Made by a program: the position numbers and the translations under genes. A stretch of DNA of 64,000 nt, taken from IMG/VR virus record IMGVR_UViG_3300046665_000434, positions 90,262-154,261 of that record, one strand, 5' to 3'. Shown piece after piece: positions 5,803-27,033 of this stretch. The notes beneath the pieces are model-generated. The model did not search any database, was not told the DNA's origin, and saw only the letters and a list, made by a program, of their open reading frames with translations. How positions within the stretch are numbered: position 1 is the first letter of the stretch; each line of letters opens with the position of its first letter. This DNA comes from a virus.

Positions 5803-5815
5803 GTCCGAGGAGGAC
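5803..5815 (+). promoter_or_regulatory. Hairpin ribosome-binding site (GTCC/GGAC type)
   Basis: GTCCGAGGAGGAC: the 4-nt arms GTCC and GGAC can pair and hold GAGGA in the loop; ATG follows at 5818. This is one of two copies with the compensatory stem change. Confidence 0.65.
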
Positions 5816-5817
5816 TC

Positions 5818-6159
5818 ATGTCGTATTCTAATGCATTGAAAATCGGTGGTGTGCTGGTATTGGCTGCAATCGGTGTCGTAGCTGCTGTCAAAGCGTACCA
5901 CGAGAAAGAAGCCGCTTCTGAAGAGAAGCTAAAACCTCTCCAGACACTGGCCATGAAAGTAATGCTCAATAAACTCCTGGTGGAGATCAGCGAGCTGATC
6001 GTATCCAAACAGGTGATGCCGGATGACGATCTGTTTATCAGAGTCAGGGTGTTCAGGGATCTCGCCAAGGCCGACTATGTAGATCTCAGCCATCTTGACC
6101 TGTGTATGCTGGTTCAGGAAGCGCAGGGCATACTGTCCACACTCAAATCCATGCCTTAA
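5818..6159 (+). CDS. Small membrane-anchored protein, unknown
   Basis: 113 residues. Residues 5-26 (NALKIGGVLVLAAIGVVAAVKAY) form one N-terminal transmembrane segment, followed by a lysine/glutamate-rich helical cytoplasmic or periplasmic part. The ATG at 5818 is chosen over the upstream GTG at 5785 because it directly follows the hairpin-type Shine-Dalgarno. The protein at 7203-7553 has the same plan and an alignable N-terminus (MSxxNxLKxGxVL), so the two are paralogues in one operon. The shared promoter-like element at 5750-5778 suggests early or coordinated expression. No function is recognised. Confidence 0.75.
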   Translation: MSYSNALKIGGVLVLAAIGVVAAVKAYHEKEAASEEKLKPLQTLAMKVMLNKLLVEISELIVSKQVMPDDDLFIRVRVFRDLAKADYVDLSHLDLCMLVQEAQGILSTLKSMP

Positions 6160-6170
6160 TAGGAGGTTAC

Positions 6171-6626
6171 GTGAAGAATCCATTCAAACGTTACGCAACT
6201 ATATTCGATCGGTTGGCAGATAGTTTTCGAATCCGTACCTTTTCTCCTAAGGACGAGGTGAAGGACGTTGTAGAAATAGGCTTCGTTGAGGCATTAGGTA
6301 TATATCTTCACCACATCACGCGTGACCTTATTCGTCAAGGACATTCTGTAATGAGTGTCGTCGGTAAGGTCAAAGCCGCCAGAAGTGACGGTTGGGAAGA
6401 TGATATCGCCGCAATGATCAACGAGTATACCAGTCGCTCTACGGTCACGTATCAGCGCTATCCGGCCGGTGTCATGTCGATAGGTATCCCTCAACAAACT
6501 TATCGCTTGAAGCTGGTGCGTACGGTGAAGAAACCGGCTTCGGATTTCGCGGGAGATATGACCCGCGGAAAAGTAGAACTGTCGGAACAAGTGCTGACCA
6601 CTATCAAAAATTATTCGTCGGACTGA
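6171..6626 (+). CDS. Hypothetical small protein
   Basis: 151 residues, no recognised domain. It starts with GTG at 6171, 6 nt after AGGAGG; the reading frame is open upstream but no better start exists and the previous gene ends 11 nt earlier. This is the one gene of the operon whose ribosome-binding site lacks the GACC/GGTC stem. The protein has a basic N-terminus (KNPFKRYATIFDRL) and alternating helix/strand pattern (VVGKVKAARSDGWEDDIAAMINEY), and appears soluble. Confidence 0.7.
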   Translation: MKNPFKRYATIFDRLADSFRIRTFSPKDEVKDVVEIGFVEALGIYLHHITRDLIRQGHSVMSVVGKVKAARSDGWEDDIAAMINEYTSRSTVTYQRYPAGVMSIGIPQQTYRLKLVRTVKKPASDFAGDMTRGKVELSEQVLTTIKNYSSD

Positions 6627-6636
6627 TCCGACTAAA

Positions 6637-6650
6637 GACCGTAGGAGGTC
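6637..6650 (+). promoter_or_regulatory. Hairpin ribosome-binding site (GACC/GGTC type)
   Basis: GACCGTAGGAGGTC, 3 nt before ATG 6654. The loop carries one extra T compared with most copies. Confidence 0.65.
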
Positions 6651-6653
6651 ATC

Positions 6654-7172
6654 ATGTTTCTTGTTTCTCGCAGTATCTTCAATCAACTCAAATCTGATTA
6701 TCTCGACCTCCCTCTCGGCGCCATCGATGAAGGTCTGCGTAACAGCATCCGTAAGATCAACATGATGAACGGTATAGTGACGTTCGCTTGCTGTGAAAGC
6801 CATTTGGAGACTGAGGAGTTTCCAGAATACGGTAGTCAATTCTACGTCGCCTTCCGGGCTAGCACTAACTACGGTATCCTTAAAATAAAGAGCATCTACA
6901 AAGGCTTTGCAGGACAGCTGGAGTTGATGGTCCCAAACCCTTATCTTGAGAATGAGTTATCGTGGACCAACCCGCGACTCGAGATCGATGAGACCTGTCA
7001 AGTTGATGGTACTGATCGACAATGGTCATTAGTGATCAGAGTAACCGTATTCAGCCATTCTTTCAAGGAAGTAGTCCTTAAAGCTTTCGAGAATGCTGTC
7101 AATAAAGAGCTGGTGCGGGACATCCCAAAAACAACTGCGGCTAAGCCGCGCCGATTCAGGCCGTCTTTCTAA
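6654..7172 (+). CDS. Hypothetical small protein
   Basis: 172 residues without a recognised domain. Seen: Cys-Cys near residue 45 (FACCESHLE), a beta-rich centre (SQFYVAFRASTNYGILKIKSIY) and a basic proline-containing tail (AAKPRRFRPSF). It follows the previous gene by 27 nt and uses a hairpin ribosome-binding site, so it is translated from the same polycistronic message. Soluble by composition. Function unknown. Confidence 0.7.
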   Translation: MFLVSRSIFNQLKSDYLDLPLGAIDEGLRNSIRKINMMNGIVTFACCESHLETEEFPEYGSQFYVAFRASTNYGILKIKSIYKGFAGQLELMVPNPYLENELSWTNPRLEIDETCQVDGTDRQWSLVIRVTVFSHSFKEVVLKAFENAVNKELVRDIPKTTAAKPRRFRPSF

Positions 7173-7186
7173 ATCTTACTGTCATC

Positions 7187-7199
7187 GACCGAGGAGGTC
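7187..7199 (+). promoter_or_regulatory. Hairpin ribosome-binding site (GACC/GGTC type)
   Basis: GACCGAGGAGGTC ending 3 nt before ATG 7203. Confidence 0.65.
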
Positions 7200-7202
7200 A
7201 TT

Positions 7203-7553
7203 ATGTCGCTTTATAACGTATTGAAAGTTGGTGCTGTACTGGCAGTTGCTGGCGCTGCCGGCTACATTGGTTACAAAGCCATAGTGGCCTATAAAGAAGA
7301 ACAGGAGTATCAGGCAAAGCAAGAAGAAATCAACGACATTAAAACACAGTTAGTGTTAAAAATGATGTCCATCCGCCTGATCGTTTCTTTCAACGGTTCT
7401 GAATGGCTGGAGATTAAAGATCCTCAGGCTTACAGTTATTACGTAGATCTTGTCAACGCCCGCAGCACCGGTTACCGTGGATTCAGCCATGCTGACTTCA
7501 AGCTCCTCTTGTACAAGCTGGAATACGTGTACGCAGTAGTTACTGCACGGTAA
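7203..7553 (+). CDS. Small membrane-anchored protein, paralogue of 5818-6159
   Basis: 116 residues with an N-terminal transmembrane segment (residues ~6-29, VLKVGAVLAVAGAAGYIGYKAIV) and a charged helix after it (YKEEQEYQAKQEEINDIK). The plan and N-terminus match the product of 5818-6159, while the C-terminal halves have diverged. Last gene of the operon; a strong terminator begins 3 nt after its stop. Function unknown. Confidence 0.75.
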   Translation: MSLYNVLKVGAVLAVAGAAGYIGYKAIVAYKEEQEYQAKQEEINDIKTQLVLKMMSIRLIVSFNGSEWLEIKDPQAYSYYVDLVNARSTGYRGFSHADFKLLLYKLEYVYAVVTAR

Positions 7554-7555
7554 TA

Positions 7556-7597
7556 TACAGGAGAGGCGTAAGCCTCTCCTGTACTCTTCTTTTTTTT
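7556..7597 (+). terminator. Intrinsic terminator of the first small-gene operon
   Basis: TACAGGAGAGGC / GCCTCTCCTGTA, 12-bp stem (7556-7583) with loop GTAA, followed by CTTCTTTTTTTT. Confidence 0.9.
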
Positions 7598-8018
7598 GTT
7601 GTAATAGCTTACATTTGGTTTCAATACTATGTAGAAGTACCCGTGGCTAATAGCCATTACAGTACAGCCATGCTCTTTAACAACTCGGTGTCAGTCACAG
7701 TAAGTGCTATCTCAGTACAGCTCCCTGATAATGACTCTCTAGCATAGCGGGTATCCAGCCCTGCATCTTAGCGCCTTTCTGGAACGATAAGCGCGCTCCA
7801 TTCGATCATGTACGAAATATCAAGTCGTTGAGCAGTAAGGGCGCTGCGCTCTGGCGATACACGACAAGGGTTGAGTCGGGTCTTTGGAAGAAACAAAGAA
7901 GTCATACGGCCCGGCCTTGCGCCGGGCTTTATGCTGTATGTAAGTATTTATAATGACGAAGTACTTATGAACATCAGTGTAGACTTCCGCCATGACAAAG
8001 ATCAACTACCCTATCCTT
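7598..8018. other. Non-coding stretch of ~420 nt
   Basis: No gene is supported. It contains a short hairpin TGGCTAATAGCCA (near 7647) and a terminator-like hairpin at 7904-7940. Nothing else is recognised; no tRNA cloverleaf was found. Confidence 0.5.
7904..7940 (+). terminator. Hairpin of the GCATA/TATGC terminator type
   Basis: Core stem GCCCGGC (7909-7915) / GCCGGGC (7921-7927), loop CTTGC, then TTTATGCTGTATG; outer CATAC and GTATG arms can also pair. It implies that a transcript enters from 7600-7900. Confidence 0.6.
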
Positions 8019-8030
8019 GGAGCAGAATCC

Positions 8031-8780
8031 ATGAACCCAGACATCGATCGTCCTACACGGCCAACTTTAGCTGAAGCTATCGCAGCGATCACAAAGCCAG
8101 CGCCGTATTGGCCACAAGACCTCATCGTCAAAGTGGTATCGCTACCGTCGAAGATGGCCGCAGACGAGCAGTTGCGTGATGCGTTTATCAACGTAATCGA
8201 AAACTTGGCAACCAATATCAGTTCGTTCAGTACTGAGCGTGTATTGCGGCCAGCTAGTGTCGGCGATGATGTCCTTGAATTCTCCAATAACTTTAATGGC
8301 ATCACTGTCCACGCGCCGGAATACGAGAACAAACCCGTCCTGCGCATGTTGCGCCAGATCCAGAATCAGTACATGGTAGGTCGTAGTCTGTCCCAACTGG
8401 CAAGGGACCCTTTCGCACTGATTGCGTTCGAGCCGAACAAGACTCGTACCGACGTGATCGATGCCTGGTTCATTCCGTCGTTTTTCATCAGCACCCTGCC
8501 TGCACATATTTGCAGTAAGAGTATCAGATCCGCGGCCGATACCGTCATCGGCGGTGAAATTTATTCGTTCGATCTGTCCGGTGAAACCCTCCAGAGTGAT
8601 CTGATCAGCGATGTCGCGTCGAAGATGTACAAGTCTATGATGCTCACTCCGGAAGGTGAACAGACCAACTCTGAGTTCTCATGGCCAGGTGCGTTGAAAC
8701 AGCTGCTGCCTAACGGTAGTACTGATGTACTGAGTAACCGTATGCAAGGTTATTCGGAAGTCATCAAACAGGCAGAATAA
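8031..8780 (+). CDS. Hypothetical protein
   Basis: 249 residues, unrecognised. ATG 8031 is preferred to ATG 7992 because GGAG lies 8 nt before it, whereas nothing precedes 7992. The N-terminus is proline-rich (NPDIDRPTRPTLAEA), followed by mixed alpha/beta sequence (QDLIVKVVSLPSKM, DPFALIAFEPNKTRTDVIDAW). No transmembrane segment or signal peptide. A terminator follows its stop by 11 nt, so it is a single-gene unit. Confidence 0.7.
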   Translation: MNPDIDRPTRPTLAEAIAAITKPAPYWPQDLIVKVVSLPSKMAADEQLRDAFINVIENLATNISSFSTERVLRPASVGDDVLEFSNNFNGITVHAPEYENKPVLRMLRQIQNQYMVGRSLSQLARDPFALIAFEPNKTRTDVIDAWFIPSFFISTLPAHICSKSIRSAADTVIGGEIYSFDLSGETLQSDLISDVASKMYKSMMLTPEGEQTNSEFSWPGALKQLLPNGSTDVLSNRMQGYSEVIKQAE

Positions 8781-8790
8781 CCTGATCCCT

Positions 8791-8821
8791 GCATAGGTCC
8801 GGCTACTGCCGGACTTTATGC
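8791..8821 (+). terminator. GCATA/TATGC-type terminator
   Basis: Outer arms GCATA (8791-8795) and TATGC (8817-8821) enclose GTCCGGC-TACT-GCCGGAC. Confidence 0.75.
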
Positions 8822-8877
8822 CGTGTCATTTCTCACCAAACCGACTTATCTAATAGACAACTAATCGAGCATCTGAA

Positions 8878-9867
8878 ATGACTACATTTATCGTAATGAC
8901 TTATGAACGTTCTTATCATGCCCATCACCGTCACGCCAGCAGTGGCTTTATCGCGTTTGCTGTAGCTAGCGCCGATATATTGGACTATAAACGAACCATA
9001 GTCGATAGCCCTAGCCCTCACCTTACGAAACCTGACCATTTTATCGAGATGGAGTTAGGGTTTCCGCATGCGGTAAGACCATTTTTGAGTGAGCTGGTCG
9101 ACTCGTTCTTTCATCACAAAGACAGTGAACTATGGAAAATGTCGCAGTTCTTGGTGGTTGCTCAGTACGACCCGCAGAAAGACAAGATCGTCAATAAGCA
9201 AATTATCCCGCTGCGCGATATCAAGAAAGCATTTCTGCCGGAGCAACCGATTGACGATAAGTTTTCCAAAGTGGGGTTGGAGTTCCGTAACAACTTGAAC
9301 GAGGAAGATATCTCTATCGTAAAAGAGGTGGCGTTGAACCTCGACCTGAACGAACGGCTGCTCACAAAAGCCAGACGCTGGAATGCTGGAGATAACAAAC
9401 GCCTCGGCCAATTTCAGCTGGTGAAGAACCACTGCAAAATGATCGGTATTCGTCAAGCTCCATTCTCGGTCCACTCTTTAGATACCGATATCCATATTGA
9501 TCGGTTCAATTCGAAGAACATCGAATTGATGGAGACGTTCTTCAATAAACACGTCACTTCGATCGAATACGGTATCGGTGATTTGAGAAGCGCGAAACTC
9601 TTTTACGCCGGCCCTCTTACGGCAGAGATGGTCACTGGCATGGTGGAGTTGTTTAAACGTTCTGAATTCGACATCCTCTATTATCAAACCAATACCCTCG
9701 GTAATGAGGTCGTCGAAGCTGAGGTTCTGAATCTTAGTTCCGGTAGTTTTGGGATCCATGAACAGGCTGGGATGCCAGAGCGTGGCTTTGTTGATTTCCA
9801 CGCCCTCAGACATCCAAAAGGCGAAGGTGCGCTGCGATTCGCCGAACAACTCCACAACCAGCTGTAA
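8878..9867 (+). CDS. Hypothetical protein
   Basis: 329 residues, unrecognised. The sequence starts with two strand-rich segments (TTFIVMTYERSYHAHHR, GFIAFAVASADI) and contains charged helices (NEEDISIVKEVALNLDLNERLLTKARRW). It has no transmembrane segment. The ribosome-binding site is weak. A hairpin (CCGTGATA/TATCACGG, 9885-9911) follows the stop, so it is probably a monocistronic unit. Function unknown. Confidence 0.7.
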   Translation: MTTFIVMTYERSYHAHHRHASSGFIAFAVASADILDYKRTIVDSPSPHLTKPDHFIEMELGFPHAVRPFLSELVDSFFHHKDSELWKMSQFLVVAQYDPQKDKIVNKQIIPLRDIKKAFLPEQPIDDKFSKVGLEFRNNLNEEDISIVKEVALNLDLNERLLTKARRWNAGDNKRLGQFQLVKNHCKMIGIRQAPFSVHSLDTDIHIDRFNSKNIELMETFFNKHVTSIEYGIGDLRSAKLFYAGPLTAEMVTGMVELFKRSEFDILYYQTNTLGNEVVEAEVLNLSSGSFGIHEQAGMPERGFVDFHALRHPKGEGALRFAEQLHNQL

Positions 9868-9884
9868 ATAATTACATGATGTCA

Positions 9885-9911
9885 CCGTGATATGTAAAAG
9901 GTCTATCACGG
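9885..9911 (+). terminator. Hairpin after the 8878-9867 gene
   Basis: CCGTGATA (9885-9892) / TATCACGG (9904-9911), 11-nt loop. No clear U-run follows, so termination is uncertain. Confidence 0.4.
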
Positions 9912-10290
9912 ATCAGTTACCTCCTTTGGGGAGCGGTGTTGTAATTCCCCGTCTGGCCGACAACCGCTCTCACTTTTTATTCCTTGGGATCGTATTACGG
10001 TTCCTCAAGAACCCCGCCGCGTAGCGTATTTGCCCGCGCGCGGCTAGGTACTGCACCGCCTCACCCTATAGGTTGCAGTTACAGCCAGCGAAGGCTGGTG
10101 GACCTCGTATAGCGCTGTCGAATGCTGTTAGTTAATGGGGTGGTCTCTCACACTGAGCCGCCAGTTGTCGGTAGGCCGGGTTAAGGCTTGGTCGCCCAGT
10201 TCACCTTGACCTGATCTTGGTGTTCTACCTGAATCTATCGACAAGTCCTGCCTCTCCTGCCTCCTTAGGGAGGTGGGGGAGTTTTATGCT
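9912..10290 (+). other. Second structured non-coding region, ncRNA candidate
   Basis: About 380 nt without a credible ORF, ending in its own terminator. Visible hairpins: CTCC/GGAG near 9925, GGTTC-CTCAA-GAACC near 10000, CCAGC-GAAG-GCTGG near 10092, and the terminal stem at 10255-10282. A stand-alone RNA or a long 5' leader for the gene at 10353 are both possible. Confidence 0.45.
10255..10288 (+). terminator. Terminator closing the second non-coding block
   Basis: CTCC-TG-CCTCC pairs with GGAGG-TGG-GGGAG across TTAGG, followed by TTTTATGCTG, the same downstream wording seen after other terminators in this window. Confidence 0.6.
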
Positions 10291-10352
10291 GTTAGGGATA
10301 TGGTATGCAGTGGTAGCCTCCATTGTACCGCAACACTTTAAAGGACTGTCAC

Positions 10353-10877
10353 ATGAAACTCAATATCGCTCTGTCTGCTGTAGCGAACGTGCTGGGTGCT
10401 ATCAACGCTGCCAACACCGCTGTTAGCCTGGCCCTCACCGAAGCCCAGGTTACTTTCGCTGCACCAGCGGTAACTGCCGGCACTGCTGGCCGTAACACCT
10501 CCATTACCTTGACCGGCGTCAATGGCCAGGGCGTCGAAGGTTCTCGTACATTCTCCTACACCCGCCAATCCCTGGCTGCTGGTGCCGTGGCTTCGACTGC
10601 TCCGGCAAGCGTTACCACAGCGCCTGGCGATACCGAAGCAGCTTCGCTGACCAAGGTCGCTACTGCTCTGGGTCTGCTGGCTGGTGAGTTCACTTCGAGT
10701 GCGTTTACCGCTCCTGCGGACATGACCACTCCGGGCACCATCACTCTGACCGCCAACGCGGCCAGTCTGGTGTACACCGGGGCTCGTACGGTGGCTTTGA
10801 ATTTTCCTGACTCCGACGTAGACTTCGCCACCCTGGCGCCGACTACTGACCTGGACGGTTTCGATGCTGAAGCCTAA
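10353..10877 (+). CDS. Virion-type repeated domain, stand-alone alanine-rich member
   Basis: 174 residues. It has the layout of the repeated domain family in this window: a starting helix (VANVLGAINAAN), 'VTFAAPAVTAGTAGRNTSITLTG', the Y-x-R position (YTRQSL), a variable middle, and 'ITLTANAASLVYTGARTVALNF' at the end. Its final residues (FATLAPTTDLDGFDAEA) match the end of the product of 21702-22298. It is the only family member on the plus strand, is rich in Ala/Thr, and uses very regular high-expression codons like the capsid gene, suggesting an abundant virion or decoration protein (inference). ATG 10353 follows AAGGA by 8 nt. Confidence 0.7.
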   Translation: MKLNIALSAVANVLGAINAANTAVSLALTEAQVTFAAPAVTAGTAGRNTSITLTGVNGQGVEGSRTFSYTRQSLAAGAVASTAPASVTTAPGDTEAASLTKVATALGLLAGEFTSSAFTAPADMTTPGTITLTANAASLVYTGARTVALNFPDSDVDFATLAPTTDLDGFDAEA

Positions 10878-10894
10878 GGCAGTTAGTTGATACA

Positions 10895-10928
10895 GCATAC
10901 AGCCCCGGCGAAAGCCGGGGCTGTATGC
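10895..10928. terminator. Bidirectional terminator between convergent genes
   Basis: 15-bp perfect stem GCATACAGCCCCGGC / GCCGGGGCTGTATGC with GAAA tetraloop, between the plus gene ending at 10877 and the minus gene ending at 10942. Confidence 0.9.
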
Positions 10929-10941
10929 CGTTCGTGTTACA

Positions 10942-12780
10942 TCACGGGTTGTAATGCAGAATCATTCGATTCTGGAACCACGACCCTACCGTCGGCTCGA
11001 TACAAACGCATCGAGTGTACTTGGTCGAGTTAGCCTCAGGAACTGACGTACTCGGCAAGACGAAACGGAACCAGTTACAACCTCCGATACCGCCATCGAC
11101 CTTACTGTCGTTCATCGACCAGTTGGTCCTGTCAGTGTTGGCGTTCAACCAGTTGATAACCGCCGCTGCGGTAGTCGACGGATCGTTAGGCTTCCACCAA
11201 CCTCCAGTACCGAGTGCTTCGAGGTTGGTCTTGATAGCACTGGCATCGTACGCGTACAGGATGTCTCGGCCGATACGGAATACCGAACCTGGAACAAACA
11301 ACGAACTGGTCGACAATACCGTCAGGTTAAAACCAACCAGACCTGTGATAGTTGCATCAGCAACATCGAGAGTAGTCAGCGACAACCCGAACTTACTGTT
11401 GATCGCAGCCAGCGAAGTCCAGATGGTAGATCCCATCCCGCTGCCCGGAAGTGTCAGATCAACTTTGTTTATGAACGCAAGGTTGATCGGGAACCGTTTG
11501 AATTTAAGAGTTACAGCATTCTTAAACCCAGATGGCCTCAATGCCCTCACACTCACGGACGAGTTATACGTAGCATCTCCGGTAATTGTCTGAACCGACT
11601 CGAAGACTACACCGTTTGACTTGAACCCAGTACCGTACTGTTTGTTCAGCTGGGCCAGGAACGATGCCAGAGGCGTCAAGGAGAACGTCGGTTGGATAGG
11701 CGGTTTTGTGATCGCATAAGCCTGGACGTTACGAAGACGCATGATCTTACCAGCAGTGACTGGAGTGAACGTCAATGTGGTGGCGTCGACACTAGCAGCA
11801 GTCCATGCCGCACCATCAGGAGATGTCGGGAAAGTACCCAACGGCAAGTTGTACGTATATGCCGTAGGCATCGCTGTGGCTTTAGCCGTAGACGTCGAAC
11901 CATTGGTGGTCAACGTTGTGTTAACCGTAATCCCCGTCGAATCACCGGCCTGACCGCCCATGCCGAGGACGAGTGCATCGATCGTGTGGTTGGGTGGCAG
12001 GAACGTTGCCAAACTGACTGCCAGTGCTCCGGTATTCGTAGACTGGACAGCGGCTCCTGACGAAGGGAGTACCCAATTCAACGTGTCCAGAAGGGTCGTT
12101 GTATAGATGCCCGTCAAGGGTGCCCAAGCGGAACCTACTGCCGAATCAAGACACAGCGGAACCAGACGACGTGGTCCAATGCGACCGTTGAAGGTATCGC
12201 CAGTCACGTTGTCGTACAGCATGATATCTCGGAAGGAGCACCCGCCTGCATAGTTCGATGGTGAGAGCCTGAAAAACACACCGAAGTTACCAGCAGCGAA
12301 AGCGGTCTTTAGAGTAGCCGACAGTGCTTTACTGCGGACAAACACGTTATTGACGTATACCGAAACCGTCCCCGCTACCGTATCAAACACGTCTTCAATG
12401 TACGCGGTATCACCGACCGCGATGTTAGGACTGAAGTCAGAAACGATCAGGCCGCCATCCGCACTCCCAGTACCGTTGAAGTTCTGGTCAACCGACACCA
12501 TCGTGTGCGCTGGCAACAATGGCACAGCTTCGATGGTAACCCGATACGCCAGAGTGAAACTCGTAGGGTTAGTCATCAACCCCGTGAAGAGGATCGTCGC
12601 GTACGTATCGGTGGTCGAAGTTCCGGGCGGGGCGGTAATCGCCCCTCGGTTGTTAACCTGGAATCCTTTCCCGTTGCTAGGCTCTTGGGCATAGCGAGTG
12701 AATGCATAGCCGCTGGTTGCAAGCCAGGTATCCGTAACGTTCTTGACGCAATGGTCAAATTGAATTGCTGCACGTAACAT
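10942..12780 (-). CDS. Multidomain virion/fibre protein: lectin-like + repeated domain + HYN domain
   Basis: 612 residues in three blocks. Residues 1-~350 resemble a concanavalin/LamG-like beta sandwich (DHCVKNVTDTWLATSG start, a middle 'DTAYIEDVFDTVAGTVSVYVNNV'). Residues ~355-505 are a divergent copy of the repeated domain with FKRFPI at the Y-x-R position. Residues ~505-612 are the HYN domain, which ends in ILHYNP and contains a segment (VINWLNANTDRTNWS...GGCNW...VPEANSTKYT) nearly matching one in the protein of 16386-17321. This is the largest member and the last gene of the minus-strand run. A surface-exposed tail-fibre or adsorption role is inferred from composition and context. Confidence 0.7.
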   Translation of the reverse strand: MLRAAIQFDHCVKNVTDTWLATSGYAFTRYAQEPSNGKGFQVNNRGAITAPPGTSTTDTYATILFTGLMTNPTSFTLAYRVTIEAVPLLPAHTMVSVDQNFNGTGSADGGLIVSDFSPNIAVGDTAYIEDVFDTVAGTVSVYVNNVFVRSKALSATLKTAFAAGNFGVFFRLSPSNYAGGCSFRDIMLYDNVTGDTFNGRIGPRRLVPLCLDSAVGSAWAPLTGIYTTTLLDTLNWVLPSSGAAVQSTNTGALAVSLATFLPPNHTIDALVLGMGGQAGDSTGITVNTTLTTNGSTSTAKATAMPTAYTYNLPLGTFPTSPDGAAWTAASVDATTLTFTPVTAGKIMRLRNVQAYAITKPPIQPTFSLTPLASFLAQLNKQYGTGFKSNGVVFESVQTITGDATYNSSVSVRALRPSGFKNAVTLKFKRFPINLAFINKVDLTLPGSGMGSTIWTSLAAINSKFGLSLTTLDVADATITGLVGFNLTVLSTSSLFVPGSVFRIGRDILYAYDASAIKTNLEALGTGGWWKPNDPSTTAAAVINWLNANTDRTNWSMNDSKVDGGIGGCNWFRFVLPSTSVPEANSTKYTRCVCIEPTVGSWFQNRMILHYNP

Positions 12781-12790
12781 AGTTCAGCTC

Positions 12791-13321: not shown

Positions 13322-13333
13322 TTTTGTACCTCC

Positions 13334-14347: not shown

Positions 14348-14359
14348 ATCGACGCCCTC

Positions 14360-15859: not shown

Positions 15860-15879
15860 GTGTTTTCTCCACCGTTGGG

Positions 15880-16377: not shown

Positions 16378-16385
16378 CGTGCACG

Positions 16386-17321: not shown

Positions 17322-17326
17322 GGTGA

Positions 17327-18121: not shown

Positions 18122-18123
18122 GA

Positions 18124-18957: not shown

Positions 18958-18967
18958 AGTGACAACC

Positions 18968-19765: not shown

Positions 19766-19804
19766 GGTTTTCTCCTGCGGTGACACGCGTTAACGCAATA
19801 AAGA

Positions 19805-19836
19805 ATGAAGAGACAGGCCGAAACCCGTCTCTTCAT
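19805..19836 (-). terminator. Terminator between family members
   Basis: ATGAAGAGAC (19805-19814) pairs with GTCTCTTCAT (19827-19836); the minus strand then reads into TCTTTATT. It divides the minus run into at least two transcription units. Confidence 0.7.
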
Positions 19837-19859
19837 CCGTTTGACCAGGATACCGGGTA

Positions 19860-20417: not shown

Positions 20418-20488
20418 GGTAGATAGACTCGCATGGTTACAGTGAGGTGCCGCCAGAAGTGACGGTGTCTATTAGGTAGGCATAGGAT

Positions 20489-21031
20489 TTACGTCGGAGA
20501 AGGGGCTTCTCGTGGAACGTAAGTCAGGCCGTCCAGATCCAGGTTGGTAATGACAGTGCTCAGTTCGATCAGATCAGGTTTGATCGTCACGGTCAACGAA
20601 CCGATGTAGCACAATGAACCCGGTTTCGCAGTGACGGTCACATCGATCGGGGTATCGACATACGGAGGTACGTCACCGTCGGTGTAATCGTCGGAAGTCA
20701 GATTGACGCCGAGACGCTCGTTCAGAGTGACGACCACGTCGGCAATCTTCTTGTAGCTGTTCGGGTTGAGGCTGAGGGTGTTATCCGGAATCGCCAGATA
20801 CACATCGGCAATATCAGTAGTCAGGTCGAGTCGGTCGTAATTGACGTCGACAGTACCCTTGTACTTGGTCGAATCAGGCTTTGCAGTGACGGTCACCTTG
20901 GAGTTCTTGGCTCCGGTAGTTGTCGCCACGTTACTGTAGACCAACTCGGTGTCTTCGATAGTTTTACCGTTGACGCGGTTGATCATGTCAGTAATGACGA
21001 CGTGGGGGACCTTCGTTAGATCATCAGCCAT
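20489..21031 (-). CDS. Repeated virion domain, single-domain member
   Basis: 180 residues: 'VVITDMINRVNGKTIEDTELVYSNVATTTGAKNSKVTVTAK', YDRLDL near 67, 'VVTLNERLGVNLTSDDYTDGDVPPY', 'SLCYIGSLTVTI', ending LDGLTYVPREAPSPT. Closest to the product of 19860-20417. The spacing of 71 nt from the neighbouring gene contains no terminator. Confidence 0.7.
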   Translation of the reverse strand: MADDLTKVPHVVITDMINRVNGKTIEDTELVYSNVATTTGAKNSKVTVTAKPDSTKYKGTVDVNYDRLDLTTDIADVYLAIPDNTLSLNPNSYKKIADVVVTLNERLGVNLTSDDYTDGDVPPYVDTPIDVTVTAKPGSLCYIGSLTVTIKPDLIELSTVITNLDLDGLTYVPREAPSPT

Positions 21032-21092
21032 GATGCAGCTCTCGTGTGGGTTTTAGTTAGGGGCGGTTATATCATCGTGAAGCGCATAGAGC

Positions 21093-21120
21093 CGTATGGA
21101 GAGGTACTCCTCTCCATACG
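21093..21120 (-). terminator. Terminator between family members
   Basis: CGTATGGAGAGG / CCTCTCCATACG, 12-bp stem with 4-nt loop; the minus strand then reads GCTCTATGCGC, again with the TATGC wording. Confidence 0.8.
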
Positions 21121-21127
21121 TTAGGGC

Positions 21128-21664
21128 TTATGCTGGCGGGGAGTACGTCAGGCCAGACAGATTCGGAATAGTGATCAGTGTTGCCAGATCCACCAGACTC
21201 CTGGTAACCTTGAGTGTCAGCTGACCCAAGTACACTACCGAGTTCGGCCGCATCACCAAATCAACGCTTACGAAGTCTTCATCATCGCCACTCAATGCAG
21301 GCAATGTTTGTTCGATGATCTTGTCAGCGGTGATGTTGGTGTTCAGACGTTCATTCAACTCAGGCAACAGATCAGACAGGACCGTGTACTCGCCTTTATC
21401 GAACGTCAGGATAGACGGCGCATTAGGCGGTATGAAGTCTATCAACCGTACGCGGTTATAATAGAACGAGGTGCTGTCCCGAAAGCCTAAGCCTGGGATA
21501 GCAGTCGCCATGATCACCGTGTTGCGATTCACAGTCGGAAGCGGATTGAACGTGGTCGGCGTACCGAAGGTTACCTGCGCAGAACTTAGGGGTTTGTTGC
21601 CATTGTCGTTACGGATGAGGTCGATGAGAACATCCACCTCACTTCGTGTGTAATCGATATCCAT
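21128..21664 (-). CDS. Repeated virion domain, single-domain member
   Basis: 178 residues from the ATG at 21664; the longer frame upstream would overlap the neighbouring gene and has no start signal. Repeated domain: 'VDVLIDLIRNDNGNKPLSSAQVTFGTPTTF', YNRVRL near 63, 'LSDLLPELNERLNTNITADKIIE', 'SVVYLGQLTLKV', ending LSGLTYSPPA. Closely related to 19860 and 20489 products. Confidence 0.65.
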   Translation of the reverse strand: MDIDYTRSEVDVLIDLIRNDNGNKPLSSAQVTFGTPTTFNPLPTVNRNTVIMATAIPGLGFRDSTSFYYNRVRLIDFIPPNAPSILTFDKGEYTVLSDLLPELNERLNTNITADKIIEQTLPALSGDDEDFVSVDLVMRPNSVVYLGQLTLKVTRSLVDLATLITIPNLSGLTYSPPA

Positions 21665-21701
21665 ACACGCATACTCAGCTGAAGGGCATATAGGAAGAGG
21701 T

Positions 21702-22298
21702 CTACGCCGGGTCGAATGCGGAGAGGTTGGTGACAGGCGCGAGGTTCGCAAAATCTCTGGCTACCAACTCATCATAATTGCCGCCATCAGTCGGCTCGGT
21801 CGCCCCAGGCGCTGTAAGGCCATTCAGGACGTTGTTAGGGAATTGGGCTGCCAACGATAGCGAACCTTCCACAACGTTGATCTGAAGCGTCCCTATCCAG
21901 ACGTAGGACTGATCGATAGGTGTGATCGTTGCAACACTTCCATCGAAGGTATAAGTCTTGACCTCTTCATAACCCAAGGGTAGGTTGTACTTAGTGCGCA
22001 GAGCGTACATGATGGAGGCGTAAGTAGGCTCGCCGTCGAGTTCGACAGTTACGTCATCGACACCGATTTCATGAAACGCTTCAGTGAGGTCATGGCGTTT
22101 GTAATAGTAGACTTGGGAGCCTTCTATCTGTGTGCCAAACGCGGTGCCCATCACGGCGGTGTTCATGCCATCATCAAACACTCCAGGATATAACTCCGTA
22201 AACCTGAGGTTGGAAGCATCTAGAAAGACGCCGTATTCCTCAAGTATTGCGCTATTCGTTGTACGAATCATGTCGTACAGTAGTTCAACACCTGCCAT
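21702..22298 (-). CDS. Repeated virion domain, first gene of the run
   Basis: 198 residues: starting helix (VELLYDMIRTTNSAILEEYG), YKRHDL near 68, 'SIMYALRTKYNLPLGYEEVK', 'SYVWIGTLQINV', then LNGLTAPGATEPTDGG and a tail FANLAPVTNLSAFDPA. The tail is shared with the plus-strand member at 10353-10877, at the other end of the array. It is divergent from the plus-strand operon starting at 22410, with 111 nt between. Confidence 0.65.
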   Translation of the reverse strand: MAGVELLYDMIRTTNSAILEEYGVFLDASNLRFTELYPGVFDDGMNTAVMGTAFGTQIEGSQVYYYKRHDLTEAFHEIGVDDVTVELDGEPTYASIMYALRTKYNLPLGYEEVKTYTFDGSVATITPIDQSYVWIGTLQINVVEGSLSLAAQFPNNVLNGLTAPGATEPTDGGNYDELVARDFANLAPVTNLSAFDPA

Positions 22299-22340
22299 AT
22301 CGACACCTGTTCTGTGGGCTGATCCCTACATTATTCGTTA

Positions 22341-22369
22341 TTCATTGAAAACATTTACAGTCATACATA
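22341..22369 (+). promoter_or_regulatory. Promoter-like element shared with 5750-5778
   Basis: Core TACAGTCATACATA (22356-22369); 25 of 29 positions equal the element at 5750-5778. It lies 23 nt before the first hairpin ribosome-binding site of the second small-gene operon. Confidence 0.6.
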
Positions 22370-22392
22370 GTGAAGGTGAATCCACAACCAGC

Positions 22393-22406
22393 GACCGTAG
22401 GAGGTC
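22393..22406 (+). promoter_or_regulatory. Hairpin ribosome-binding site (GACC/GGTC type)
   Basis: GACCGTAGGAGGTC, 3 nt before ATG 22410. Confidence 0.65.
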
Positions 22407-22409
22407 ATC

Positions 22410-23006
22410 ATGGATTATTCAGCAATCAACCACGTCATCTATCGGATCAAATTGCCGAAAGAGATGTTCGTTATCGGTGGCACATTCGCTGCCGGTCTGA
22501 CGGAACCTAGCCTGGCAAAGGCGATGGGTGGTGGTGGCGAGCAGATTAAACTGTTCGTCTCGTCGAGCAACTTCGAAGTGTTGAAAAACTACACTCCGGA
22601 TGTTCCTCGAGCTGTTCTGACCGTGGAGGACGATCAGATCAGTTTGCGCGATGGACACATGCACATTGTGTTCCATCGGGGACTTCCTCAATCCTGGGTT
22701 AACGAGAGTGGTTACCAGGTCCAACATCCAGTGCCTCTCAAGCACTGGCTCGACACCAACGGCTATGAAAGCTGGGCGGTGTTGATGCAAGACACTCCAT
22801 TCGAAAAACGGATGGAGGGTTGGGTGTTGACGGAGGAGGAGGCTGTATTCAAGGAAGAATGCTCCCGCCATGACTGGTATTCCGATTACTCCGACGACTT
22901 CAGTGTCGTCAAGAACGGAAAGGTAGGACTTAATGTTCTACTGGCCCGTCGGGATGTAATCGGCGGTAAGGCGCGCGAGATCTTCGCGCACTACTCCAAC
23001 CGGTAA
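22410..23006 (+). CDS. Hypothetical protein, first gene of second small-gene operon
   Basis: 198 residues, unrecognised. A glycine-rich stretch (GGTFAAGLTEPSLAKAMGGGGEQ) near residues 23-45 is followed by mixed sequence rich in aromatic and acidic residues (CSRHDWYSDYSDDFSVV). No transmembrane segment. It is preceded by the shared promoter-like element and a hairpin ribosome-binding site, as in the operon at 5818. Function unknown. Confidence 0.7.
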   Translation: MDYSAINHVIYRIKLPKEMFVIGGTFAAGLTEPSLAKAMGGGGEQIKLFVSSSNFEVLKNYTPDVPRAVLTVEDDQISLRDGHMHIVFHRGLPQSWVNESGYQVQHPVPLKHWLDTNGYESWAVLMQDTPFEKRMEGWVLTEEEAVFKEECSRHDWYSDYSDDFSVVKNGKVGLNVLLARRDVIGGKAREIFAHYSNR

Positions 23007-23070
23007 GGTGGGGAAGGAGGGAGTGAAAGCTCCCTCTTATTTTCTAACAGAATCCGAGGACGATAGATCA

Positions 23071-23565
23071 ATGAATATTGATAGTAAATCAAATATTAAG
23101 TTCAGCCGTAATTTACAATTTGTAGGCATCGATCATCCGTGCGTCTACTCTCGACTCCATACTCCGCCGGCGAACAACATTCCGGTGACTCTGGAAATTA
23201 CCGACGACAGGGATGATCAGATATCTGTGAAGGGTGAACTCTGGGTTTCTTTGGATTTCATCGGGGACGATGTGTTAGATTCGGTTGCAGTTAGGCAACG
23301 TATCTACATGTCAGTGCAAAATTTCTTCGGCGCGAGTAAATTTCTCGGCCGGGTAAAAATACGGTACGCTGATCAGCATCAATCTTCCAGTCAGCCTGAC
23401 GACGCAGATGATGAGTTCTGGGACCACCGCAGCACCTACGAGTCCATCGCTCTACTGGCGGCGCAGCTGGCTAAGGTCGATCCTAAAGACTTCCTTAAAA
23501 CGGAAGACTCGAAGATCTTAAATAAAGCGCTCGGCGAACTCTGTTTCCACGCCGCGTTGTCTTAA
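23071..23565 (+). CDS. Hypothetical protein
   Basis: 164 residues, unrecognised; starts at ATG 23071 after CCGAGGA, ten nt upstream, which is a weaker relative of the operon's hairpin sites. The sequence is beta-rich at first (NNIPVTLEITDDRDDQISVKGELWVSL), with an acidic linker (SQPDDADDEFWD) and a helical C-terminus. Soluble by composition. Confidence 0.65.
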   Translation: MNIDSKSNIKFSRNLQFVGIDHPCVYSRLHTPPANNIPVTLEITDDRDDQISVKGELWVSLDFIGDDVLDSVAVRQRIYMSVQNFFGASKFLGRVKIRYADQHQSSSQPDDADDEFWDHRSTYESIALLAAQLAKVDPKDFLKTEDSKILNKALGELCFHAALS

Positions 23566-23575
23566 CTCAATAAAC

Positions 23576-23588
23576 GACCGAGGAGGTC
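23576..23588 (+). promoter_or_regulatory. Hairpin ribosome-binding site (GACC/GGTC type)
   Basis: GACCGAGGAGGTC, 3 nt before ATG 23592. Confidence 0.65.
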
Positions 23589-23591
23589 ACC

Positions 23592-23966
23592 ATGCAACTC
23601 AATAATGACAGCGTCATTCAAATCGCTGATAAGCTTTGGTTCGTTATGGGACCAGACGATAAATGTCGAGAATTCACCAAATCGCTTAGCGGCGCTGAGT
23701 CGATCTACTGCGTGTCCGGTTACTTCGGCGGTTTGTCGTTAGATGTACCGCTTGGCCTGTATCGAGCTATTGGTAATTTCGTGATCGCGGATGTTGTCGA
23801 CGAAGTTGACGCATCGATCCACTTCGCCAACCTCAAGCTGATCAAAAGCATGTTGGGAAATAAGTTGATTGAAAATACAACTACCCGAATGACCGTTGAT
23901 TATCTTTTCGTCAGTCGTGACTGTCCTGTTTTAGAGCGGGGCGAGCCTGGTTTCTATTGTTCTTAA
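23592..23966 (+). CDS. Hypothetical protein
   Basis: 124 residues, unrecognised. Contains four cysteines (KCREF, YCVSG, DCPVL, YCS) without an obvious zinc-binding arrangement, and a beta-rich region IYCVSGYFGGLSLDVPLG. Between two members of the small-gene operon, spaced 26 nt from the first and 17 nt from the next. Function unknown. Confidence 0.65.
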   Translation: MQLNNDSVIQIADKLWFVMGPDDKCREFTKSLSGAESIYCVSGYFGGLSLDVPLGLYRAIGNFVIADVVDEVDASIHFANLKLIKSMLGNKLIENTTTRMTVDYLFVSRDCPVLERGEPGFYCS

Positions 23967-23967
23967 C

Positions 23968-23980
23968 GTCCGAGGAGGAC
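23968..23980 (+). promoter_or_regulatory. Hairpin ribosome-binding site (GTCC/GGAC type)
   Basis: GTCCGAGGAGGAC before ATG 23984. Together with 5803-5815 this is the compensatory variant of the stem. Confidence 0.65.
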
Positions 23981-23983
23981 ATG

Positions 23984-24811
23984 ATGAAAAAGTCACAACG
24001 CAACAAACCCAATGCTTCTCAAGGTACACCATGTCTCGTCATCTTTGACGAGTTTGCTAAACTACAGGCGAAGATTGCTGCCTTCCAACCGAAATACATT
24101 GTGGCGTATGAACTGCTGAGCTTCTTGCCGCACAGCTTGATCGAGCGTATCCACAACGAATGTAAGGGAAATGATCTCGCTCACCAGCCTGATCATGTCT
24201 TCGGTGTTGTCCGTCAGGTGGATCGGATTCTCACTACCTTTCCACAATACGAGCATTATCGCAAGGTGTTGCTCGGCGCGGCGCTGCTCCACGATGTCAA
24301 GTGTCACGTCAACCGTGATATCCATCACGTCCTGGCTGCGCAGTCTGTCGATGCGTACTACGGCAACATCGGCGTCTACGATATCCATGAGCTGGAGTTG
24401 ATCAAACTCTGCATCCTGGAACATCGTGCGTCGTTTAAAGGCGTACGTACTGGCCCGATTACTGAGATCATGGCTGCTGCTGATCGAGGTATTCCTGACG
24501 TGATGCGCTTCTTGCAGCGCGCTGTGTTGTTTCGCATCAGTAACGAGGGGATCACTCCCGATAACGTTACCGATGTAATCATTGAGCGACAGGTCAATAG
24601 TGCTGTCGAGCACTTGATCGATAAGTACGGTTCAAACGGGTACGCTTGGAAAAATGAATCCAAGTTCACGACCTGGGTAATGCGTGATCACATCGCCTCG
24701 TTTATCGAGACGCTTACGGACTTTACGCCTGAGGTTATCGCTAGCGGTATTCAGCGGTATCCCGGTTGGCTTAAAGAAGCCTATAAACCCACACACGAGA
24801 CTCCATCATGA
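23984..24811 (+). CDS. HD-domain phosphohydrolase
   Basis: 275 residues. The HD-superfamily metal ligands are visible in order: His71 (PDHVFGVV), His103-Asp104 (ALLHDVKCHV), further His at 114/115 (DIHHVLAA) and 147 (ILEHRAS), and Asp167 (MAAADRG). HD proteins remove phosphate from nucleotides, cyclic nucleotides or signalling molecules; the substrate here is unknown. ATG 23984 is chosen over the adjoining ATG 23981 because the other genes of the operon leave about 5 nt after GGAGG. Its stop overlaps the start of the next gene (ATGA), so the two are translationally coupled. Confidence 0.75.
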   Translation: MKKSQRNKPNASQGTPCLVIFDEFAKLQAKIAAFQPKYIVAYELLSFLPHSLIERIHNECKGNDLAHQPDHVFGVVRQVDRILTTFPQYEHYRKVLLGAALLHDVKCHVNRDIHHVLAAQSVDAYYGNIGVYDIHELELIKLCILEHRASFKGVRTGPITEIMAAADRGIPDVMRFLQRAVLFRISNEGITPDNVTDVIIERQVNSAVEHLIDKYGSNGYAWKNESKFTTWVMRDHIASFIETLTDFTPEVIASGIQRYPGWLKEAYKPTHETPS

Positions 24812-25161
24812 GTAGCGTCAAAATTGTAGTAATGGGTAATCCACTTATCCTGACTCTATCTACCGTGACTCCTGTTGGCCAGCACCGGATTGGTTCGGTG
24901 CGGGTGGAGTTTGATCATGGCGAACCAATCCATGTCCGTGTCTACGGACATGTGCGTATCTTTGAGAACGCCAAACTCCGTGCTCGCTTTGAGACGGACC
25001 TGCGCAAGTACTGCGAGAACCCGGCAGTGCTCGAACAGATCATCCCGTACAACGGTAGCCTCGCAAAGGCTCGTCGATTCAATCCATCCAAAACCCAAGT
25101 AAATGAACGTGACTGGTATAAAGGCACAAAGAAGGGCCTCGCAGCCGTCATCGTTAGCTGA
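24808..25161 (+). CDS. Hypothetical small protein coupled to the HD gene
   Basis: 117 residues, unrecognised. Starts within the stop region of the HD gene (ATGAGTAGC overlapping TGA), which implies translational coupling and perhaps a joint function. N-terminal half is beta-rich (IVVMGNPLILTLSTV, SVRVEFDHGEPIHVRVYGHVRI), C-terminal half is basic (KARRFNPSKTQ, WYKGTKKGL). No transmembrane segment. Confidence 0.65.
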   Translation: MSSVKIVVMGNPLILTLSTVTPVGQHRIGSVRVEFDHGEPIHVRVYGHVRIFENAKLRARFETDLRKYCENPAVLEQIIPYNGSLAKARRFNPSKTQVNERDWYKGTKKGLAAVIVS

Positions 25162-25176
25162 GCATAACACCCGAAA

Positions 25177-25189
25177 GACCGAGGAGGTC
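25177..25189 (+). promoter_or_regulatory. Hairpin ribosome-binding site (GACC/GGTC type)
   Basis: GACCGAGGAGGTC, 3 nt before GTG 25193. Confidence 0.65.
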
Positions 25190-25192
25190 ACT

Positions 25193-25651
25193 GTGTCGTA
25201 TCGAATCTCTCCAGCAACAGCAGAACTTTTGCTTTCAATTAGTCAGAAAGGTATTCGTCTGACTAACAGCGCTGACATTCAGTTAGCTGGGAACGCAGAG
25301 GTGATCCTTAAATCAGGTAAAGAGTTTATCGTCGGTGTCGATAGCGGCACTCTTTACCTGATCGATATTGTTGACGATCAGCCGTTCTTCATCTCTGACG
25401 CGACTCACTGGGGTGAATTGCAGGGCGTCTGGTCGCATTACTTTAATTTAGTCGCTATGACTAATTCGTCCGATCCGTTAGGACCTATCTGGTTCGAGTA
25501 CGATGATCCTGAGATCTGCCGATTTGACGGACTATCTCACGCCGAAGCCATACGTCAAGATCAATTGGTGATGTCGGCACACAAACAAATCGAACCGCTG
25601 CCTAAACAGGTTCACCGTCAAGCTGACAAACTGTCTATCCAGCATCACTAA
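25193..25651 (+). CDS. Hypothetical protein
   Basis: 152 residues from a GTG start fixed by the hairpin ribosome-binding site. Beta-rich N-terminal part (IQLAGNAEVILKSGKEFIVGVDSGTLYLIDIVDDQPFF) and an acidic, aromatic middle (GPIWFEYDDPEICRFDG). No recognised domain or membrane segment. Confidence 0.65.
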   Translation: MSYRISPATAELLLSISQKGIRLTNSADIQLAGNAEVILKSGKEFIVGVDSGTLYLIDIVDDQPFFISDATHWGELQGVWSHYFNLVAMTNSSDPLGPIWFEYDDPEICRFDGLSHAEAIRQDQLVMSAHKQIEPLPKQVHRQADKLSIQHH

Positions 25652-25667
25652 TCGGTATACCCACATC

Positions 25668-25680
25668 GACCGAGGAGGTC
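25668..25680 (+). promoter_or_regulatory. Hairpin ribosome-binding site (GACC/GGTC type)
   Basis: GACCGAGGAGGTC, 2 nt before ATG 25683, the tightest spacing of the set. Confidence 0.65.
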
Positions 25681-25682
25681 AC

Positions 25683-26186
25683 ATGAACATCATCAAACTC
25701 AATGCCCGTCGTGTAGTAGTCAGCGAAGCTGGCGTCACCAAAGTGATCAACCTGCCGTGTGGCGTCAGCTATTCCGAAGATCACCAGCGCTTTTACGCCT
25801 GGGTAATCGATCCTCAAACTGACAGCTGGAAGGGCAAGAGCTGGGGTGCCAAGAAGCATGGTGCTATCGAAGCCTTTGAGAACGCCGTAGAGGCTCGTGA
25901 AGAGTCGTTGTCGTATCTCTTGACCCGTCGTCTGCTTCCGCGCATTCGTCGTCCCTACGAGATCCGTGAGATCAGCGGGCTGTTTTACGTCAGAGATCCG
26001 TTGGCGAAGAAGTATCGGATGTTCTCAACGCTTGCACAAGCTGCGAAGTTCAACATCGATATCACTAAAGAGTGGATCGGTGAATACACGTTTGACAAGT
26101 TGACCATGATTCAGATCGAACGTAGCGGCTATGGCGTAAAAGCCGTCCTCGCTAAATACGACCATCGGCATGAGACTCGTCACTGA
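25683..26186 (+). CDS. Putative DNA-binding protein (AP2-like)
   Basis: 167 residues. Residues ~26-75 (GVSYSEDHQRFYAWVID...SWKGKSWGAKKHGAIEAFENAVEAREE) follow the pattern of AP2-like DNA-binding domains: GV-x-hydrophobic, charged, W/Y-x-A-x-hydrophobic, K-x-x-x-W/LG, then a helix with AIxAF. A second part (PYEIREISGLFYVRDPLAKKYRMFSTLAQAAKFNID) could be a second copy of the same fold. A role as a phage transcription factor or HNH-linked domain is inference. Last residue overlaps the next start (TGATGA). Confidence 0.45.
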   Translation: MNIIKLNARRVVVSEAGVTKVINLPCGVSYSEDHQRFYAWVIDPQTDSWKGKSWGAKKHGAIEAFENAVEAREESLSYLLTRRLLPRIRRPYEIREISGLFYVRDPLAKKYRMFSTLAQAAKFNIDITKEWIGEYTFDKLTMIQIERSGYGVKAVLAKYDHRHETRH

Positions 26187-26383
26187 TGACTCACTTCAGC
26201 ACGAACCAAGGTAATCACGGCTCAGCTGATGCACATCGTGAGCTCGACAATATCCAAGACCGTAAACGGAGAGAGCGCTTTGAACAGAAAGCAGTCATCG
26301 TCCTCAGTGTTGTCATCGGTGTCTTCAGTCTCCTCGGAGCTGTTCTCATCATCCAAGGCCTTCCTATCCTCTTCGAGGGGTAG
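26186..26383 (+). CDS. Small transmembrane protein
   Basis: 65 residues: a hydrophilic N-terminus (NQGNHGSADAHRELDNIQDRKRRERFEQ) and one transmembrane segment near the C-terminus (residues ~37-60, AVIVLSVVIGVFSLLGAVLIIQGLPIL). The start overlaps the stop of the AP2-like gene (ATGA), so it is translationally coupled to it. A further frame with a signal-like segment begins 10 nt after its stop. Function unknown; a membrane-targeted host-interaction protein is a guess. Confidence 0.6.
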   Translation: MTHFSTNQGNHGSADAHRELDNIQDRKRRERFEQKAVIVLSVVIGVFSLLGAVLIIQGLPILFEG

Positions 26384-26393
26384 ACGTCGGGAG

Positions 26394-26567
26394 GTGTTAC
26401 CCATCCTGGCTTTGGCTGCGGTGTTTGTGGTAGCGTTGGACTTCTGTCTGATGCGAGACATCTCTGCGGCTAATACGCCTCCCTGCTTCGATTACAAGGG
26501 CCAAGCTGAAGCAGGGGTGATTGTAAACACCGAGGCTCTTCGAAACGTAGACCTGTGCGGGAAATGA
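26394..26567 (+). CDS. Possible small exported protein
   Basis: 57 residues from a GTG at 26394: a hydrophobic N-terminus (LPILALAAVFVVALDF) like a signal peptide or membrane anchor, then CLMRDISAANTPPCFDYKGQ and a final Cys (DLCGK). The start is uncertain: GGAG touches the GTG directly and AGGGG lies 14 nt upstream. The same frame stays open back to 26229, overlapping the previous gene. Kept because it fills the 250-nt space before the next gene and has a plausible two-part design. Confidence 0.35.
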   Translation: MLPILALAAVFVVALDFCLMRDISAANTPPCFDYKGQAEAGVIVNTEALRNVDLCGK

Positions 26568-26617
26568 GTCATGCCAAAAGTAATTGAACCGGGTAAGCGC
26601 TAGTTAATTACATCACC

Positions 26618-26631
26618 GACCGTAGGAGGTC
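26618..26631 (+). promoter_or_regulatory. Hairpin ribosome-binding site (GACC/GGTC type)
   Basis: GACCGTAGGAGGTC, 3 nt before ATG 26635. Confidence 0.65.
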
Positions 26632-26634
26632 ACT

Positions 26635-27015
26635 ATGAGTAGTAATGAAATCGTTATAGGTCGAGGTGGCATCACCCGACGTCAAAATGCCGTAATGGCG
26701 TATGAACTGTTCCTTACTGCGAAGCATCTGGAAGTAATGGAAGCTTTGCGGCCTCACTACAACGATAACTACGTCGACACCTTGATCTGTTCTGAGATCC
26801 TGTTGGAGTGGTTCGAGATCGTATCGTCGAATACGGCTGGATCTTTCGACGAGCTGTGGTGGGCATTTTACTACACTCGCATTGCGATGACCGATCCGAA
26901 GCTCGGCAACCTTTTAAGTGTTAGGGCGAGCGACTACTGTAATTTTACGGCTAAGGCTAGTGAGATCATGCGTTTCATCGCAAACCTTGACAACCGTATC
27001 TCTCAATACTGCTAA
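26635..27015 (+). CDS. Hypothetical small protein
   Basis: 126 residues, helical by composition (RQNAVMAYELFLTAKHLEVMEALRPHYND, ILLEWFEIVSS, SEIMRFIANLDNRISQ), no recognised domain or membrane segment. Continues the small-gene operon and is separated from the next gene only by its hairpin ribosome-binding site. Confidence 0.65.
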   Translation: MSSNEIVIGRGGITRRQNAVMAYELFLTAKHLEVMEALRPHYNDNYVDTLICSEILLEWFEIVSSNTAGSFDELWWAFYYTRIAMTDPKLGNLLSVRASDYCNFTAKASEIMRFIANLDNRISQYC

Positions 27016-27020
27016 CCAAC

Positions 27021-27033
27021 GACCGAGGAGGTC
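27021..27033 (+). promoter_or_regulatory. Hairpin ribosome-binding site (GACC/GGTC type)
   Basis: GACCGAGGAGGTC, 3 nt before ATG 27037; last of the ten copies. Confidence 0.65.

Follow-up and report, generated by a model that had tools for sequence, protein, structure and literature searches.

Why would a whole set of small phage genes carry the Shine-Dalgarno (SD) sequence within a short inverted repeat, and is it the sequence of this repeat or its fold that is maintained? The question is raised by a stretch of 64,000 nucleotides (hereafter the window), which comprises bases 90262–154261 of the 154,261-base viral record IMGVR_UViG_3300046665_000434, and in which ten genes of two operons are preceded by units of the type GACC-G(T)AGGA-GGTC. 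Judging by its RNA polymerase and capsid proteins, the record represents a phiKZ-like jumbo phage, whose best cultured match is Pseudomonas phage pPa_SNUABM_DT01 (DT01; approximately 35% identity). The analyses described below give good support to selection acting on an RNA stem at the starts of a set of genes in this phage and its relatives.

All ten units of the original prediction were recovered where it had placed them, on the + strand, 0–3 bases upstream of ATG or GTG, the start in each case of an open reading frame (ORF) of 113–325 codons. The form GACC-GAGGA-GGTC occurs five times: at 7187..7199 (ATG 7203), 23576..23588 (ATG 23592), 25177..25189 (GTG 25193), 25668..25680 (ATG 25683) and 27021..27033 (ATG 27037, with homologues in the related records G006, G018 and G019, numbered here with our own handles). 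GACC-GTAGGA-GGTC is found at 6637..6650 (ATG 6654), 22393..22406 (first gene of operon 2, ATG 22410, whose homologues in G006 and G018 have GACC-GAGGA-GGTC) and 26618..26631 (ATG 26635), while GTCC-GAGGA-GGAC precedes the first gene of operon 1 (5803..5815, ATG 5818) and a double start, ATGATG at 23981/23984 (23968..23980). Some genes of both operons lack the unit. A scan of the whole record for units with complementary arms gave 12 copies, i.e. the ten of the window and two further strict copies at record positions 53031 and 83959, also on the + strand. The two arms do change together, as had been claimed, but what changes is a single base pair, the second of the stem, from A-U to U-A; the window has two such cases, and the copy at record position 83959 is a third. 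The loop holds the 5' part of the SD and not the rest, as two bases of the 4-nt 3' arm are SD bases. The pattern GWCCGWGGAGGWC was matched 8 times in the window, compared with 0.02 matches expected from dinucleotide shuffles, and the sole match with mixed arms (22619, GACC-GTGGA-GGAC) lies within a coding region and not at a start. Between positions 5000 and 29000 of the window, Rfam gave no match near a gathering score.

Covariation of the stem among related phages

A search for relatives with one protein found none, and neither did a capsid search of genome contigs, while a capsid alignment of viral records yielded 15 loci. A pattern scan of viral contigs returned mostly single matches, as well as three large records (G001, G004 and G006) with 13–15 exact or near-exact copies on one strand. 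Fifteen records (that of the window and fourteen related IMG/VR records) were read whole or nearly so. The larger ones carry 9–17 copies each, on one strand and 0–8 bases before a start. A search of 12 records with GWCCGWGGAGGWC gave 40 exact matches, all with matched arms and none mixed.

For an unbiased set of sites, the main strand was searched for every CC-NNGGA-GG that precedes an ORF of 40 codons or more with an ATG or GTG start; the outer arms were not used for selection, and the two inner pairs, being fixed by construction, cannot vary in this set. Both outer pairs were Watson-Crick in 111 of the 123 sites and in none of the 5 sites on the opposite strand; when the arms were shuffled 5000 times, the number averaged 43.1 and never exceeded 59. 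Ten combinations of outer pairs were observed. Reduction to 78 distinct rows left 94.9% of cells paired and 48 two-sided changes, with a covariation score of 0.358 (0.091 when shuffled and at most 0.052 with slid partners). In these rows pair 1 was GC in 60 cases, AU in 7, UA in 4, CG in 1 and other in 6, and pair 2 was AU in 32, UA in 28, CG in 5, GC in 3 and other in 10. Two-sided changes that keep the pairing, beyond shuffled and slid controls, are the mark of a covarying RNA hairpin, and this is what the units display.

A wider scan, in which CC and GG were not fixed, revealed 152 hairpins on the main strand versus 9 on the other. Among the former were ten copies of GACT-GAGGA-AGTC, together with TACT, AGCT and GTCT forms that occur once or twice and likewise have a GAGGA loop; in the GACT-type forms the loop-closing pair changes from C-G to U-A and the SD changes from GGAGG to GGAAG. 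Some of the rare forms, such as GGCG-GTGGA-CGCC before a GTG, look like chance. The GGA is invariant in the loops and the first loop base is a near-invariant G, with UAGGA as the loop of G021. By computation, then, pairs 1 and 2 and the loop-closing pair covary, and the units have the potential to form a hairpin.

Homologous genes retain the hairpin despite differing stems. The family of window gene 25683 is present in 11 records with GACC, GTCC and ACCC stems, all of them paired, a second family has ACCC, GACC and GTCC stems across nine copies, and a G004 gene with GACT-GAGGA-AGTC shares 93% identity with a G016 gene whose unit is GACC-GAGGA-GGTC. Selection on the RNA stem beyond the ribosome-binding site, as originally proposed, is borne out by these homologues, by the paired sites and by the two-sided changes; most copies in relatives being unable to pair, the result named in advance as fatal to the proposal, is the reverse of what the 123 sites gave.

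DT01 has a separate series, NNNCT-NNGG-AGNNN, with stems mostly of 5–6 bp that are unlike one another in sequence and unrelated to the stems of the clade. Seven of its 32 sites are fully paired over three outer pairs, whereas 2000 shuffles gave 0.7 on average and never more than 5, for a pattern that was defined after its listed stems had been seen. One gene of this series (121393, TGTTCT-TAGG-AGAACA) has homologues among the hairpin genes of G006, G018 and G019, in which the unit is GTCC-GTGGA-GGAC. Strong SD stems are in mild excess over the whole DT01 genome (24 vs 16.6), and since this excess is mild, the case for DT01 rests on the specific series. Of four other phiKZ-like phages, LucasX did not share the clade's excess of strong SD stems (14 vs 13.5), and no clear excess was seen in the parts of the SNUABM_54, Noxifer and HPP-Temi genomes that were examined. 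Simply counting perfect stems at every SD start proved too noisy, on its own, to reveal the signal.

Several observations weigh against the cis-acting gate that is proposed below. No G-U occurs in the two variable outer pairs, and a constraint on RNA only would usually tolerate G-U, although such a pair would leave a very weak 4-bp stem. Of the 111 paired copies in the clade, 98 use only GA/TC or GT/AC outer bases, and since the mix of strong and weak pairs outside these two forms is close to chance, it argues little for a tuned stability. The preference for G at stem position 1 is without explanation. Moreover, of 45 further loci outside the set with homology to hairpin genes, approximately 33 have, by our own reading, no hairpin in the upstream sequence inspected (roughly a quarter have a variant hairpin), so that many homologues do without it.

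Possible roles of the hairpin

The folding energy computed with ViennaRNA was -4.5 kcal/mol for the common units, -2.9 to -6.6 for the clade variants and -0.8 to -5.7 for the units of DT01; across the 19 listed units it ranged from -0.8 to -6.6 kcal/mol, most lying between -3.8 and -5.1. The mean pairing probability of the stem was 0.65 in the native context and 0.51 with shuffled flanks. Hairpins of such weakness barely inhibit translation in E. coli. In addition, ribosomal protein S1 aids the opening of structured starts (PMC3858243). For these two reasons a gate that opens would seem a better description of the stem than a lock.

The unit may then be a cis-acting RNA element at the translation start. 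The mRNA just 5' of the start codon would fold into a stem of 4 pairs in the clade of the window and of 5–6 pairs in DT01, with the 5' part of the SD exposed in the loop and its last two bases occupied by the first stem pairs. The loop would nucleate pairing with the 3' end of the 16S rRNA and the stem would open upon binding of the 30S subunit, acting as a metastable gate and as an insulator that keeps the G-rich SD from pairing elsewhere. Such a gate would determine how fast translation is initiated on a group of small phage genes that are transcribed together. Going by sequence, we see about an even chance that the stem is a weak cis-acting gate on 30S binding. The hairpin presumably forms in vivo, its fold likely controls translation of the genes behind it, and a dedicated trans-acting factor would not be needed.

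The strongest alternative, less probable and still to be taken seriously, is that a trans-acting factor uses the hairpin as its operator: the SD loop and stem would be read by a ribosome that the phage has modified or by a component of the phage's own making, and the set would be activated or repressed jointly. The confinement of the hairpins to a single gene set per genome, on one strand and with a common promoter-like element (see below), would fit such a factor, as would the strong preference for G-C at stem position 1 and the near-invariant first loop G, which the SD does not need for its pairing if a T follows; the jumbo phage phiKZ has early proteins that bind ribosomes (PMC10914614). 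A fuller version, tentative and a little less probable again, holds that the clade marks its small promoter-linked genes by a structural ribosome-binding-site code, read by a phage-made or phage-modified translation component, with the mRNAs chosen or timed as a group. On the other side, the stems of DT01 differ among themselves and from those of the clade, and since they have little sequence in common, a reader of the stem sequence is argued against; the UAGGA loop of G021 points the same way, and none of the 64 proteins scanned in the promoter-linked operons of G016 was recognised as an RNA-binding translation regulator. We prefer the cis-acting gate to a trans-acting reader. A boxB-like GNR(N)A pentaloop, as bound by an N-like peptide, was considered and rejected: GNGGA fits it, but the UAGGA of G021 and the NNGG loops of DT01 do not.

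Binding of host CsrA/RsmA to the loop GGA, with repression of the genes, is improbable. These proteins prefer ANGGA in hairpin loops that often overlap the SD (PMC6028588), and the units resemble their sites in that the loop of a short hairpin at the SD contains GGA, which is invariant here. However, the loop is mostly GNGGA: the base two before GGA, where the consensus wants A, is G in 103 of the 123 sites and A in 4. Moreover, CsrA (PF02599) was absent from 6 phage records (the control was positive in 3 genomes), so only a host protein could act.

Shielding of the SD from a RegB-type endonuclease of phage or host seems about as improbable. T4 RegB cuts GGAG in the SDs of many early phage genes and RNA structure protects from it (PMC3014915), and the SD is both GGAG-bearing and structured here. 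The stem nevertheless covers just part of GGAGG, and strong RegB sites, the consensus of which is GGAGRAYARAA (PMC3014915), have an A-rich 3' context that is missing from the units. A search of the phages with the RegB family PF10715 gave no match, the control being likewise silent.

It is a degree less probable still that the inverted repeat is a DNA site for a DNA-binding protein and that its location at the SD is incidental. Missing G-U intermediates in the variable pairs would suit this explanation, and the promoter-linked operons of G016 do encode Arc-like DNA-binding proteins. The arms, however, vary widely and yet stay complementary, the unit occurs on one strand only at a fixed 0–8 bases before starts, and the SD itself changes along with the closing pair. 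Least probable of all, and already disfavoured by the covariation, is the mere spread by copying of a good ribosome-binding cassette whose fold is not selected, since most copies are of two stem forms but two-sided changes separate homologous genes and run across the ten outer-pair combinations, and the flanks of most copies differ outside the unit.

The hairpin genes and their promoter-like element

That the genes form a set, as originally suggested, is upheld by their common strand, their size and an upstream promoter-like element. According to a simple home-made gene caller, hairpin genes have a median of 129 codons and start with ATG in 112 of 118 cases. The stem mostly ends 3 or 6 bases before the start, and the 12 nt upstream of it are G-poor (8% vs 15% for other genes).

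The promoter-like element, with the consensus TTWCAGTCAYACATW, is present in 9–17 copies per genome, on the same strand as the hairpins, and is conserved across the clade. In the window it lies at 5764..5778 in operon 1 and at 22355..22369 in operon 2 (both + strand), preceding the first hairpin by 39 and 38 bases, respectively; two further copies, on the strand of the hairpins, are at record positions 52981 and 83456. By the same gene calls, such an element is found no more than 3 kb upstream of 53 of the 59 hairpin genes in four records, compared with 175 of 655 other + strand genes, an association for which the Fisher p-value overstates independence because hairpin genes are clustered. The element is possibly the early promoter of this phage group, and the hairpin genes may be early. 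Operon 1 is closed by an intrinsic-terminator-like hairpin with a T-rich tail (7556..7583, + strand).

Translational coupling was rejected as a general role. Among the 101 copies with an upstream neighbour on the same strand, the stem is more than 60 bases from the upstream stop in 41 and at most 20 bases from it in 42, with 5 overlapping the stop.

As to the products, the gene behind the hairpin at 23968 matches phrog_3921 and proteins of other jumbo phages annotated as phosphohydrolases. Two hairpin genes of operon 1 (5818–6156 and 7203–7550) have similar-looking N-terminal hydrophobic segments and perhaps encode small membrane proteins; other records, too, have hairpin genes whose proteins start in a similar way. 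Also encoded in the promoter-linked operons of G016 are a PhuZ tubulin, a dihydrofolate reductase and an alginate-lyase-like protein. At the two contig ends of G006 (reverse-complement positions 76 and 262987) are hairpin genes that are 87% identical, both with TACC-GTGGA-GGTA, which would be neighbouring duplicates if the genome were circular.

Comparison with known elements

The start-associated sequences (SAS) of cluster K mycobacteriophages (Pope et al. 2011, PMC3203893) are the nearest described element to the units reported here. They are 13-base units with an SD core, located a few bases before mostly ATG starts of non-structural genes, in 11–19 copies per genome and nearly all in one orientation; approximately half have an extended 17-bp inverted repeat upstream. 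Experimental proof of their role is still awaited (PMC12699233). Both elements are thus SD-bearing repeats near starts, in roughly 10–20 copies of one orientation. The host group differs, however, and the units, which read GWCC-GNGGA-GGWC and variants, do not fit the SAS consensus GGGATAGGAGCCC even with up to 2 deviations. Where it describes SAS, the paper of Pope et al. treats them as a conserved sequence and not as a covarying stem. The outer bases of SAS (GGGN7CCC) can pair, and the arms do pair in most copies of phages Anaya and Pixie. They are mostly invariant, and several copies break a pair on one side. In one Pixie copy (locus L387 5520, Pixie record position 30519) both outer bases have changed together, giving CGGATAGGAGCCG, a hint that a stem may be involved in SAS as well.

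Hairpins that sequester the SD of single phage genes, such as that of mobE of phage Aeh1 (cited in PMC3014915), are likewise local hairpins holding the ribosome-binding site; in contrast, the series described here spans a gene set and covaries across genomes. In the open-licence PMC literature, which was the scope of the search, no report of SD hairpins in jumbo phages was found, and Shine-Dalgarno sequences go unmentioned in two reviews of these phages.

Several SD hairpins were also seen in smaller viral contigs that differ in size and base composition (L139 and L206, which are one 38,497-base contig, L165 and L145). At the loci that matched the pattern but do not belong to the clade, further paired sites in front of starts outnumbered those in shuffles (19 vs 9.8 and 17 vs 8.4).

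To our knowledge, covariation evidence that a phage selects a fold around the SD over a whole gene set is uncommon. Since DT01 is a cultured phage of Pseudomonas aeruginosa with its own version of the hairpin, the question is open to bench work. In phiKZ-like phages that enclose their DNA, transcription takes place apart from translation (PMC12908238), and because of this separation the folding of free mRNA at its start sites would be a sensible place for control.

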